IMG/VR virus record: IMGVR_UViG_3300009425_000021
Coordinates: 1-52,991 of that record
Reading direction: 5' to 3' (one strand)
From: a virus
Length of the DNA: 52,991 nt
Notes under the pieces: generated by a model
Seen by the model: only the letters and a program-made list of their open reading frames with translations
The model's database searches: none
Told to the model about the DNA's origin: nothing
Made by a program: the position numbers and the translations under genes
Shown here: positions 5,037 through 18,824 of the stretch, piece after piece
Numbering within the stretch: position 1 is the stretch's first letter
How the letters are laid out: every line of letters begins with the position of its first letter

Positions 5037-5050
5037 GAGTTTACAAACAA

Positions 5051-5081
5051 TAAAAAAGGGAGTTTTTAACTCCCTTTTTTT
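5051..5081 (+). terminator. Intrinsic terminator after the fibre genes
   Basis: GGGAGTT and AACTCCC form a 7-bp stem with a TTT loop. A-rich sequence precedes it and seven T residues follow. It ends the fibre transcription unit and, because of the flanking A and T runs, could also work on the minus strand for the small gene at 5095-5223. Confidence 0.9.
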
Positions 5082-5094
5082 GTGATTTAAAAAT

Positions 5095-5223
5095 CTAACA
5101 AACTTCACGCATGATATTCGAGGGGTGACCCGATTTCATGATGATGTCAAATTTTCTAGAAAGATTGGTAACCGATGTTCCGAACTTGGATAACATGGCT
5201 ACTATTCCTTTTGGATTCGCCAT
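5095..5223 (-). CDS. Small basic protein, 42 aa, unknown
   Basis: A short minus-strand frame with an ATG at 5223 and a good ribosome site, AGGAGA, seven bases upstream. It encodes 42 residues beginning MANPKGIVAMLSKFG and ending REVC, and stops with TAG at 5095-5097. It is basic with an amphipathic middle (SVTNLSRKFDIIMKSG). It sits alone between the fibre terminator and the curli promoter region. I know no family for it. The strong Shine-Dalgarno sequence and clean termination next to the bidirectional terminator are the reasons to call it a gene. Confidence 0.55.
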   Translation of the reverse strand: MANPKGIVAMLSKFGTSVTNLSRKFDIIMKSGHPSNIMREVC

Positions 5224-5289
5224 ACTTTTCTCCTAAAATGTAATAACAAACTCTAACCCACTTGCTGTAACTTCATCCTTAATAGGAAC

Positions 5290-5394
5290 TGTTACAATCA
5301 ATCTACAAGTATGTTACAATTGTGTTACAGAATGTATTTATACAAACAAGTATTTTTACCAGGAAATATGTGATATTGCATAACAGATGTTACA
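5290..5394 (+). promoter_or_regulatory. Cluster of four TGTTACA boxes upstream of the curli operon
   Basis: TGTTACA occurs at 5290, 5312, 5323 and 5388, all in the same direction. The first three are spaced 22 and 11 bases apart, about two and one helical turns. They lie in the gene-free stretch 5224-5483, upstream of the late promoter at 5413. The arrangement looks like an array of protein-binding sites, but the binder is unknown. Confidence 0.45.
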
Positions 5395-5412
5395 CAGAAA
5401 CTAAACCCAAAC

Positions 5413-5420
5413 GATAAATA
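5413..5420 (+). promoter_or_regulatory. T4-type late promoter for the curli operon
   Basis: GATAAATA lies 63 bases before the ATG at 5484. It would start a transcript through the tightly packed genes 5484-10499. Confidence 0.65.
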
Positions 5421-5483
5421 GTAACTGTAGACAGTAACACAGACACACTTAAAGAAGCAACCCTTAAAAGGTGTGTACATAAT

Positions 5484-5780
5484 ATGGAAGAAATATTTGG
5501 ATTAATTACCGAAGTCGGTGCCCCGATTGCTGGAAGTGTAGTAATGGGATTTTTTATATTTGTAGTAATAAAGCAAATACTAGAAGGAGTAGTCGAACAA
5601 GTTAAAACCTTGACGATGTTTTGCTCCAGTTTGGAAGCCAGAGCAAGTACTATGAGCAACGAGATGCTTAAAATAGACTTGCTGGTTAGTAGTGCCCTAG
5701 ACCTCAGACCCGATATAGATAGAGTTTCAAGAGCAGACAATTTTGTCGAAGATGGCAAAGTCGATGCTAGGAGAGACTAA
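5484..5780 (+). CDS. Small membrane protein with coiled coil, 98 aa
   Basis: A single hydrophobic segment (about residues 11-32, GAPIAGSVVMGFFIFVVIKQ) is followed by a helical, probably coiled-coil tail. It is the first gene of the curli-type operon and its stop overlaps the ATG of the next gene (5780). That neighbour has the same plan (an I-x-x-x-G-x-P entry to the membrane helix, then a coil), so the pair looks like paralogues. The layout recalls small YvrJ/holin-like phage membrane proteins. A role in lysis or in assembling the secretion channel cannot be told apart from sequence. Confidence 0.7.
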   Translation: MEEIFGLITEVGAPIAGSVVMGFFIFVVIKQILEGVVEQVKTLTMFCSSLEARASTMSNEMLKIDLLVSSALDLRPDIDRVSRADNFVEDGKVDARRD

Positions 5781-11538: not shown

Positions 11539-11546
11539 GATAAATA
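11539..11546 (+). promoter_or_regulatory. T4-type late promoter for the Asn/Thr-repeat gene
   Basis: GATAAATA lies directly behind the terminator and 91 bases before the ATG at 11637. Together they form a clean boundary between transcription units. The leader 11552-11636 holds no gene I can support. Confidence 0.65.
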
Positions 11547-11636
11547 CTTGTACATAATAACACAGGGTTTACTTATAACACCACACAAACACACCTAAGC
11601 GAACCAACAAAAGCACAGTACCCTAAAGGAGAAAAA

Positions 11637-16727: not shown

Positions 16728-18824
16728 ATGAAATTTTTATATAGTGGTTATGCAGTACTGATATCTATTGTGTTGCTACTTGCATTGCGAGTAGCAGATC
16801 CAACGGCACTACAAAGTGTTAGAGGTCAAACATTTGATGCATATCAACAGTTAGATACAATTAAGCAAAGCCAGGATGTTGTACTATTAAACATCGGCGA
16901 AAAAAGTTTAGCAGTTAATGGTCAATACCCTTGGCCCAGACAATACTATGCACAAATGGTGATAGATGTTGCAGGCGCCGGAGGCGGTGTGCTAGGCTGG
17001 ACGATTATGTTTCCTGAAGCAGACAGGTTTTCTGGAGACGAAATATTTGCTAATTATTTGATGGAAAATAAGGTTAATGTGCAAGGAGCAAGACGTAATC
17101 CTATTAACTTTAATGTATTAAGTCAAGCAACTAGTACAAGAGGCATTAAAACATCAGGCCCACATATAGGAACAGGCACAATTGGCCCTGTGCCAGCAAA
17201 AGATTATTTACTAAAGTGGCCCAACTTAGTTACAAACATTCCGCTACTAGAAGCAGTAGCAAACGGCAAAGGCGTAACAGCGTCAGCACCACAGCCAGAT
17301 AACCAAACACGAACATACCCATTAGCAATTACAGTTGGCGATAGACTGTATCCTAGTTTTGCTATTGAAATGCTAAGGGTAAGTAAAGGTCAAAAAAGTT
17401 ATATGGTTAAGACTAGCGAATTGGGAATACAAGAAGTTGCTGTTAAAGGATACGACCCAATAGTAACGCAGTCAGACGGTACAGCATACATTCGCTTTAA
17501 CAACACATTCGAGGAAATTGAATACTTGGGAGCCGAAACTTTGGACCATCTTGCAGGCAAAATGGTTATAGTAGGTGTTACAGCAGAAGGTATTGCAAAT
17601 CCTGTGCCTACGCCAAGAGGTAATTTGTATCCACAGCAAATACATGCTCATATGCTACAGAACTTTATAGATAGCAGTAACATTACCAGGAATGAGTTAA
17701 GTGCTGTGTACGAGCTTCTGTGTGCGTTACTGGGCATGATATTAATAGGTTTAGCGATATATAAATCGCATATATGGGTAGGATTAGTAACTACAGTTAC
17801 TATTATAGGAGGAATTGTATACTACAGTATACATTCTTACACAGCAAACTTGGTATTATTTGATGCAACGTTTCCAGCAATAGCAAGTTTCTTAATATTT
17901 ACCCAGGCAAGTTTTAACAACTTCTGGATACAGTTTAAACTAAGAGCAGAGATACAAAAACAATTTGCCGGTTATGCCTCTCCTACTGTAGTGCGTATGT
18001 TACAAGAAAATCCAGAACTAATTAAGCAAGGTATGAAGAAAGAAGTAAGTATTTGCTTCTCAGATTTACGTGGATTTACACCTCTAGGTGAGAGCTTTGG
18101 GGACGATGTACAAGGTTTAACAAAGATAATGAATGGGTATATGGATGCTATTACACAACCTATACTTGATGCAGACGGCATGGTGATTAAATATATCGGC
18201 GATGCAAGTATGCACATACACAATGCTCCTATGGACGATCCAGACCATCCTAAGAGTGCGGTGCAAACAGGACTATTAATGCTTAGGGCAGTAGAGAAAT
18301 TCAATGATAAAATTGTTAAAGAAGGTAGACCACCCGTTGGTATGGGTGCTGGTATTAATACTGGGCTCGGTTATATTGGGGAAATGGGCTCCACTGCAAG
18401 ACACTCATATGACATACTCGGAGATGCAGTTAGTACCGCGGCAAGAATAGAAAGCAAATGTAAAGAGTACGGATGTTTACTCCTTGTGGGCGGTGATACA
18501 CATAAACATACTGCAAATGATTTCTTTTATTTAAAAGTAGATGACTTGGCAGTAAAAGGAAAAACAATTGGTATAGAAATATATACCGTACTTGATATTA
18601 AGAAAACTAAGTATGCTAAAGCAAAACAAATGCACGAAGACATGCACACACATTATCGCAATCAAGAATTTAAGAAAGCAATTAATCTATGTGAAAAGTT
18701 AGCAGATGCATTTGAAGGCAAGATGTCAAACTATTATACTATGTGGATTGAACGTTGTAAATTCCAAATGACTCAAACACTTCCTAAAGATTGGGACGGA
18801 GTATTTATTGCTACATCGAAGTAG
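16728..18824 (+). CDS. CHASE2-domain class III adenylate cyclase, 698 aa
   Basis: This is predicted to make cAMP from ATP at the inner membrane. An N-terminal membrane helix (about 4-22) leads into a periplasmic CHASE2 sensor domain (about 30-310). Membrane helices follow (about 325-400), then a class III cyclase catalytic domain (about 425-625). Catalytic features seen are the metal-binding Asp in FSDLRGFT (near 445), the second Asp in KYIGDAS (near 492) with its Lys, the Asp of YDILGDAV (near 561) and the Arg of STAAR (near 571). The Lys/Asp pair fits ATP rather than GTP. The usual transition-state Asn is replaced by Ser (VSTAAR). The gene closes the secreted-protein island and is convergent with 18825-19451. 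A full-length, apparently intact membrane cyclase is very unusual in a phage. Confidence 0.9.
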   Translation: MKFLYSGYAVLISIVLLLALRVADPTALQSVRGQTFDAYQQLDTIKQSQDVVLLNIGEKSLAVNGQYPWPRQYYAQMVIDVAGAGGGVLGWTIMFPEADRFSGDEIFANYLMENKVNVQGARRNPINFNVLSQATSTRGIKTSGPHIGTGTIGPVPAKDYLLKWPNLVTNIPLLEAVANGKGVTASAPQPDNQTRTYPLAITVGDRLYPSFAIEMLRVSKGQKSYMVKTSELGIQEVAVKGYDPIVTQSDGTAYIRFNNTFEEIEYLGAETLDHLAGKMVIVGVTAEGIANPVPTPRGNLYPQQIHAHMLQNFIDSSNITRNELSAVYELLCALLGMILIGLAIYKSHIWVGLVTTVTIIGGIVYYSIHSYTANLVLFDATFPAIASFLIFTQASFNNFWIQFKLRAEIQKQFAGYASPTVVRMLQENPELIKQGMKKEVSICFSDLRGFTPLGESFGDDVQGLTKIMNGYMDAITQPILDADGMVIKYIGDASMHIHNAPMDDPDHPKSAVQTGLLMLRAVEKFNDKIVKEGRPPVGMGAGINTGLGYIGEMGSTARHSYDILGDAVSTAARIESKCKEYGCLLLVGGDTHKHTANDFFYLKVDDLAVKGKTIGIEIYTVLDIKKTKYAKAKQMHEDMHTHYRNQEFKKAINLCEKLADAFEGKMSNYYTMWIERCKFQMTQTLPKDWDGVFIATSK

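Follow-up and report, generated by a model that had tools for sequence, protein, structure and literature searches.

A candidate PhoB-type operator at a putative late promoter of a small gene in uncultured marine phages

The four TGTTACA boxes that an initial annotation had assigned to a curli operon are real, but on the evidence of sequence comparison they appear to belong with a small phage gene on the opposite strand rather than with the curli genes. Read on that strand, a late promoter, a TGTAACA-N4-TGTAACA pair, a leader and a small open reading frame (ORF) follow one another, and this unit seems to be conserved in viral contigs without being tied to curli. The pair also looks like the PhoB-type box word found ahead of pst genes in some genomes of SAR11, and its orientation, the same as at the pst genes, would point toward the small gene. 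On balance we favour reading the boxes as a Pho box, a PhoB-type operator that overlies the start of a late promoter of the T4 type, which would drive the small gene from the minus strand. The window, i.e., the whole analysed stretch of 52,991 bases of the IMG/VR record IMGVR_UViG_3300009425_000021, carries the genes of a T4-like phage with gp15 and tail-sheath homologues and with a curli operon that encodes CsgF, CsgG, FecR, and two proteins with sub-threshold matches to the curlin repeat. The features around the boxes are listed in Table 1.

Table 1. Features of the region between the small gene and the curli operon (positions in the window).
Feature	Position	Strand	Basis or remark
Late-promoter-like GATAAATA, phrog_18771/csg operon	5413..5420	+	
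Isolated fourth TGTTACA	5388..5394	+	Upstream of the minus-strand promoter
Late-promoter-like TATAAATA of the small gene	5335..5342	-	Octamer match
Box 1, TGTAACA, unit 1 of the 11-base array	5323..5329	-	Top SAR11-profile match starts here
Box 2, TGTAACA, unit 2	5312..5318	-	Word match, leader comparison
Degenerate unit 3, TGTAGAT	5301..5307	-	Leader comparison
Unit 4, TGTAACA; doubles as 5' arm of the inner hairpin	5290..5296	-	
Inner hairpin, two helices	5267..5295	-	Two-sided changes in relatives
Extended leader hairpin (predicted), boxes 1-2 strand with pre-ribosome-site strand	5243..5328	-	z -2.86
Shine-Dalgarno AGGAGA	5229..5234	-	
Small ORF of 42 aa, MANPKGIVAMLSKFG..., new family	5095..5223	-	
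Terminator-like two-way hairpin, tail-fibre gene / small gene junction	5052..5080		

All four same-direction boxes were found on the plus strand, starting at 5290, 5312, 5323, and 5388, and the claimed steps of 22 and 11 bases among the first three were borne out; the third step is 65 bases. The single word TGTTACA shows no enrichment over the window, with 22 matches on the two strands where 16.9 would be expected and with 12 of 100 shuffles reaching 22, and it is the clustering that is unusual: three same-strand boxes within 40 bases, or four within 110, appeared in 0 of 400 Markov windows, as did any same-strand pair 11 bases apart (0/400). The exact TGTTACA-N4-TGTTACA occurs once in the whole record. 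On the minus strand the units read TGTAACA, TGTAACA, TGTAGAT, and TGTAACA, with CAAT, TACT, and TGAT between them, directly after TATAAATA. The suggestion that the phasing reflects a single regulator suits this array, which consists of phased direct repeats of the type bound side by side; it does not extend to the box at 5388, which lies outside the array and whose exact word recurs at that position, among 73 phrog_18771 loci, only in the near-identical L082, L083, L084, and L145. The stretch described as gene-free holds the minus-strand ORF of 42 aa with its AGGAGA ribosome site, which reads toward the terminator-like hairpin, while the late promoter reported downstream of the boxes is indeed present as a late-promoter-like sequence on the plus strand.

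Late promoters of the T4 type need gp55, gp33, and the sliding clamp, and their transcripts start about 6 bases after the octamer. Similar octamers are a feature of the window, where 16 of the 22 [TGC]ATAAATA sites lie no more than 150 bases upstream of a same-strand gene, in a gene list that we picked from the ORF table and with the small gene among the 16; the corresponding mean was 1.64 and the maximum 4 in 50 simulations. The TATAAATA octamer upstream of the small gene is a credible late promoter judged by this comparison, and three of the four boxes would therefore stand at and immediately below the point where a divergent transcript begins. What differs from the T4 type is that an operator-like array begins here 2-6 bases after the octamer. 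The leaders that follow two late-type promoters (5413-5450 and 11539-11600) share a TAACACAG...CACAC-like sequence, which L085 and L095, too, have near the csg promoter. In the accessible part of the work on pelagimyophages, late promoters are said to have resisted prediction (PMC7029224).

The reading first proposed, in which the boxes are operators of the curli operon, draws on their place in the window, where they end 19 to 117 bases ahead of the csg late-type octamer. Two samples of relatives bear on it, one of 73 loci with a relative of the curli operon's first gene (phrog_18771), the other of 80 loci found with CsgG, 73 of which were kept because they had at least 1.8 kb upstream. In the phrog_18771 sample seven loci, four of them near-identical, have the pair along with the small ORF, 66 have neither, and none has one without the other; csgF or csgG is present in 69 of these loci, and 62 of the 69 are without pair and small ORF. 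The csgG sample gave 15 loci with both, 58 with neither, and again none with one alone. In these counts, as in that of the 83 loci discussed below, related and near-identical loci are each counted singly. Cultured phages HTVC008M and Melnitz likewise carry csg operons, with no pair within 12.8 kb around csgG. Most csg-linked loci of the two samples thus do without the boxes, none of them has the boxes without the small gene, and the SAR11 profile described below is oriented the opposite way, toward the small gene; we ruled out the curli operators, which we consider extremely improbable. The seven csgG records of cultured phages comprise four from Methylophilales, two from Pelagibacter (one phage twice), and one short Salmonella phage record. 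A gene with CHASE2 and adenylate/guanylate cyclase domains lies near the curli region of the window (16728-18824), and HTVC008M and Melnitz likewise have cyclase genes after csg.

The unit itself is found in many marine viral contigs. A scan for the pair plus TATTTAT returned 76 viral loci, with the same order of parts in nearly all of them; L181, L205, and L222 show no visible unit and look like chance matches. A second pattern, built on the coding start, returned 66 viral loci, 59 of which are shared with the 76; having been derived from loci found by their boxes, it contains no box letters but does not sample the family independently. It gave 0 matches in genome_contigs. When the two sets are combined, 18 of the 83 loci carry csgF, csgG, or p18771a and 65 do not, where absence refers to the stretch examined, which is often short. 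The 65 include the three probable chance matches. In L207, which is also one of the 65, fecR and curlB are matched at a distance of about 2.7 kb, and csgG is found elsewhere on the contigs of L207, L233, and L236. Of 15 large records, 14 have a single copy of the exact pair, and the fifteenth has a variant. ORFs were called on both sides of the unit in 22 of the 30 non-redundant loci outside the curli setting, and in 18 of the 22 the unit opposes the direction of both neighbour genes. The flanking genes are varied (UDP-glucose dehydrogenase, exonuclease, glycosyltransferase), and no common partner gene was found among 52 flanking proteins.

Sixty-six complete leaders, i.e., the window and 65 loci, were compared at a fixed 11-base step; L235, which is cut before the promoter, was excluded. 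The exact TGTAACA-N4-TGTAACA is present in 60 of them, the other six match 11 to 13 of the 14 letters, and every one of the 66 has ATAAATA directly ahead of box 1. The distance from ATAAATA to the start of box 1 is 4 bases in 54 of the 76 loci and 2, 3, 5, or 6 bases in the others. Units 3 and 4 are weaker than boxes 1-2 across the 66 leaders. A comparison of the leader with cultured phages matched only three Bacillus phage records, over 24 bases at E 0.8. Triple arrays of TGTAACA exist in other viral settings as well (129 arrays in 119 loci, seven inside ORFs), none of them with ATAAATA just upstream. By eye, several of the triple arrays in L357-L475 seem to adjoin tRNA genes or terminators and have the flank gaaattgttacacaat. 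Subsets of the loci L155-L230 share further repeats 30 bases ahead of the late promoter, either TTAATGAT (at steps of about 11 bases) or TTGTCAA.

The Pho box of E. coli consists of 7-base half-sites arranged as direct repeats at 11-base steps, and Pho box promoters have a -10 hexamer about 10 bases past the second half-site. The phage unit resembles it in its 7-base direct half-sites, 11-base steps, and AT-rich linkers, and its word is identical to that before some SAR11 pst genes; it differs in lying directly below a phage late promoter, probably within the transcribed leader, and in showing no clear -10 at the usual place, where SAR11 pstS has no clear peak either. Bacterial genomes contain at least 119 loci with three TGTAACA at 11-base steps, and 113 of these 119 arrays, among the matches listed, lie outside any ORF longer than 150 aa. 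The commonest Pfam families in 69 downstream proteins of the matches listed were PBP_like_2 (7) and the PHO4 phosphate transporter (7), followed by methyltransferases (at most 6 each), PhoU (2), and the phosphate-selective porin Porin_O_P (2); proteins of 110-760 aa were profiled, and those shorter or longer were left out.

In SAR11 the exact pair is rare, being present in 18 of 197 genomes of the family. Nine of the 18 loci lie inside one conserved ORF, which is a coding coincidence, and the other nine are intergenic. Eight of the intergenic pairs precede pst genes, one PstS-like and seven PstC-like, of which the PstS-like and one PstC-like protein were profiled and six were assigned to PstC by visible N-terminal likeness. 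The PstS-like protein matches PBP_like_2 and scores 143 with the NCBIfam PstS model, below the cut-off of 207, while the profiled PstC-like protein is above the PstC cut-off. The ninth intergenic locus, L482, has no clear target gene. Its triple array (also L305, about 2854-2882) lies beside genes that by eye are arsenate reductase- and aquaporin-like, with no clear downstream gene, and the sequence after the array resembles the pstS leader of L496.

A pstS match was found in 116 of 194 genomes, and 30 pstS upstream regions were read. All 30 contain a pair at the 11-base step that matches 11 to 14 of 14 letters at -78 to -98; the mean for 16 non-redundant upstreams is 12.25 of 14 against 9.04 in simulated sequence, and among spacings of 8 to 14 only 11 stands out. 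A SAR11 profile made of 16 pstS-promoter sites, picked for their likeness to TGTAACA / the phage word, was run on both strands of the window, whose host may not be SAR11, and ranked the minus-strand site at 5329 first with 19.4 bits; the next site has 13.4 bits, the best of 20 simulated Markov windows 16.5 bits, and the same site on the plus strand only 8.0 bits. Over the 66 leaders the profile scores range from 9.3 to 29.0 bits (median 17.2) against up to 16.5 in the simulated windows, and some leaders would therefore not stand out by profile alone.

The same orientation would also suit an activator. In that case PhoB would switch on the small gene early in phosphate-starved cells, with boxes 1-2 in place of the sigma-70 -35 element, a weak -10 in unit 3, and the late promoter as a second start; cyanophage genes under host PhoBR are known, according to the accessible part of the source (PMC10976474). 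Against this stand the 39 phage leaders in which no -10 peak was found at spacer 10 after unit 2 (2.28 matches to TATAAT), and the covariation described below, which suggests that boxes 1-2 are transcribed. In SAR11, the pstC promoters have 3.43 matches at spacer 10 (n=7) and also 3.43 at spacer 8, and 22 pstS promoters show no clear peak either, so that the missing -10 of the phages argues only weakly against activation. We regard activation as rather unlikely but as the main alternative to the preferred blocking operator at the late start.

Comparison of the leaders points to a structured RNA. Two-sided changes were found in eight of the nine pairs of the inner hairpin (37 leaders), and the covariation score of the whole given structure, box helix included, was reached by 0 of 500 shuffles (kinship ignored); L207 and L220 were left out of the alignment A2, and L207 out of the strand- and linker-exchange tests. 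Folding of three full leaders gives a single long hairpin (z -2.86, -2.70, and -3.69 against shuffles), with z -1.12 for the inner 58-base piece alone. In the long hairpin the strand made up of box 1, linker, and box 2 is paired with the one ahead of the ribosome site; this pairing replaced a self-helix of box 1 with box 2, which was rejected as having no two-sided change. Cognate strands pair at -11.9 kcal/mol against -9.9 kcal/mol for exchanged ones (38 leaders, 0/2000 permutations, kinship ignored), and only 2 of 38 leaders have their cognate 3' strand as the top-ranking partner. In 34 of 38 leaders the own 4-base linker pairs better than swapped linkers do on average (0/1000 permutations, kinship ignored), and it is best or tied in 10 of 38; in the window's leader 6 of 12 swapped linkers pair better, and the own linker has no advantage. 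As the leader RNA appears to covary with boxes 1-2 included, the boxes are probably transcribed from the late promoter, which would therefore be a working start. Searches with Rfam 15 put only three tRNAs of the window above the gathering score, and none of 10 matches (up to E 10) over 5050-5500 reached it.

Such a leader raises the question of whether the boxes act in RNA only, either as UGUAACA repeats bound by an RNA-binding protein or just as the 5' strand of the hairpin. The folding of the three whole leaders and the linker preference are in line with this reading. It has to contend, however, with box letters that barely vary while the linkers drift, with the short leaders L158, L189, L194, L207, and L227, in which the inner hairpin is absent and boxes and spacing are retained, and with the same pair preceding SAR11 pst genes. 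We judge a role in RNA only to be quite improbable and keep to the PhoB-type operator in DNA.

The small gene represents a family with short forms of about 40 aa and long forms of 99-124 aa (12 long forms, alignment A6). The long forms have a signal-peptide-like start and two invariant cysteines. A start like MA(N/K)(P/S)LGIVA is common to the short forms and nine of the 12 long forms, and L189, L194, and L227 start with MIKV. In nine long forms (L164, L173, L180, L189, L194, L207, L210, L227, and L232) the stop codon shares an ATGA with the start of a second ORF, which has 22-27 codons and contains an MKSGR-like motif, the same as at the end of the short forms. The short gene, that of the window included, resembles the long and the second ORF fused in frame. 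Five family members had no match in Pfam or PHROG at E<=0.001 (best E 0.11 and 0.054), and the long protein found one weak match only (E 3) in cultured phages. The predicted fold is helical for the short form (pLDDT 65) and mostly beta for the long form (pLDDT 78), for which Foldseek gave no match at E<=0.001 in PDB and BFVD. Tentatively, and with less than even confidence, we propose a two-layer leader whose first ~20 transcribed bases would serve at once in DNA as an operator for host PhoB and in RNA as one strand of a covarying hairpin, typically in one copy per uncultured marine phage. The gene it controls would be a phosphate-gated, late, modular one encoding a secreted protein and a coupled peptide of ~22-27 aa, or a fusion of ~40 aa.

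Genes controlled by host PhoB have been described in cyanophages, i.e., in S-PM2d and, as cited there, pstS of P-SSM2, and the accessible part of the same article warns that the prediction of Pho boxes in phage genomes is unreliable without binding tests (PMC10976474). The likeness lies in phage genes being read by the host phosphate regulator, whereas the cyanophage consensus is PyTTAAPyPyT/A and the candidate site reported here has another word and lies at the late start of a small gene. In the excerpts accessible to us, a consensus search for cyanophage Pho boxes is reported (PMC3037559) and PhoB/U is mentioned in a SAR11 isolate (PMC12421899). The csgF and csgG genes of the window resemble the pelagimyophage curli operon, located in a variable region of SAR11 myophages; the accessible part of that work contains no mention of the unit (PMC7029224), and no description of it was found in the accessible portions of the open-licence literature on Pho box/PhoB, Pelagibacter, and marine phages.

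We hypothesize that boxes 1-2, or perhaps units 1-4, are the binding site of phosphorylated host PhoB. With the start position taken from T4, a regulator on boxes 1-2 would cover about -1 to +18 of the late start and would therefore clash with the polymerase there. The effect we tentatively favour is that in a phosphate-starved host active PhoB would block or delay late transcription, which ample phosphate would release, and the leader hairpin could then set the stability or translation of the message. If this is true, phages of abundant non-cyanobacterial ocean bacteria would read the phosphate stress of their hosts, and would do so at a late promoter. The unit would offer a concrete Pho-box word for SAR11, a new family of small genes, and a site at which the relation between phosphate state and infection may be addressed.
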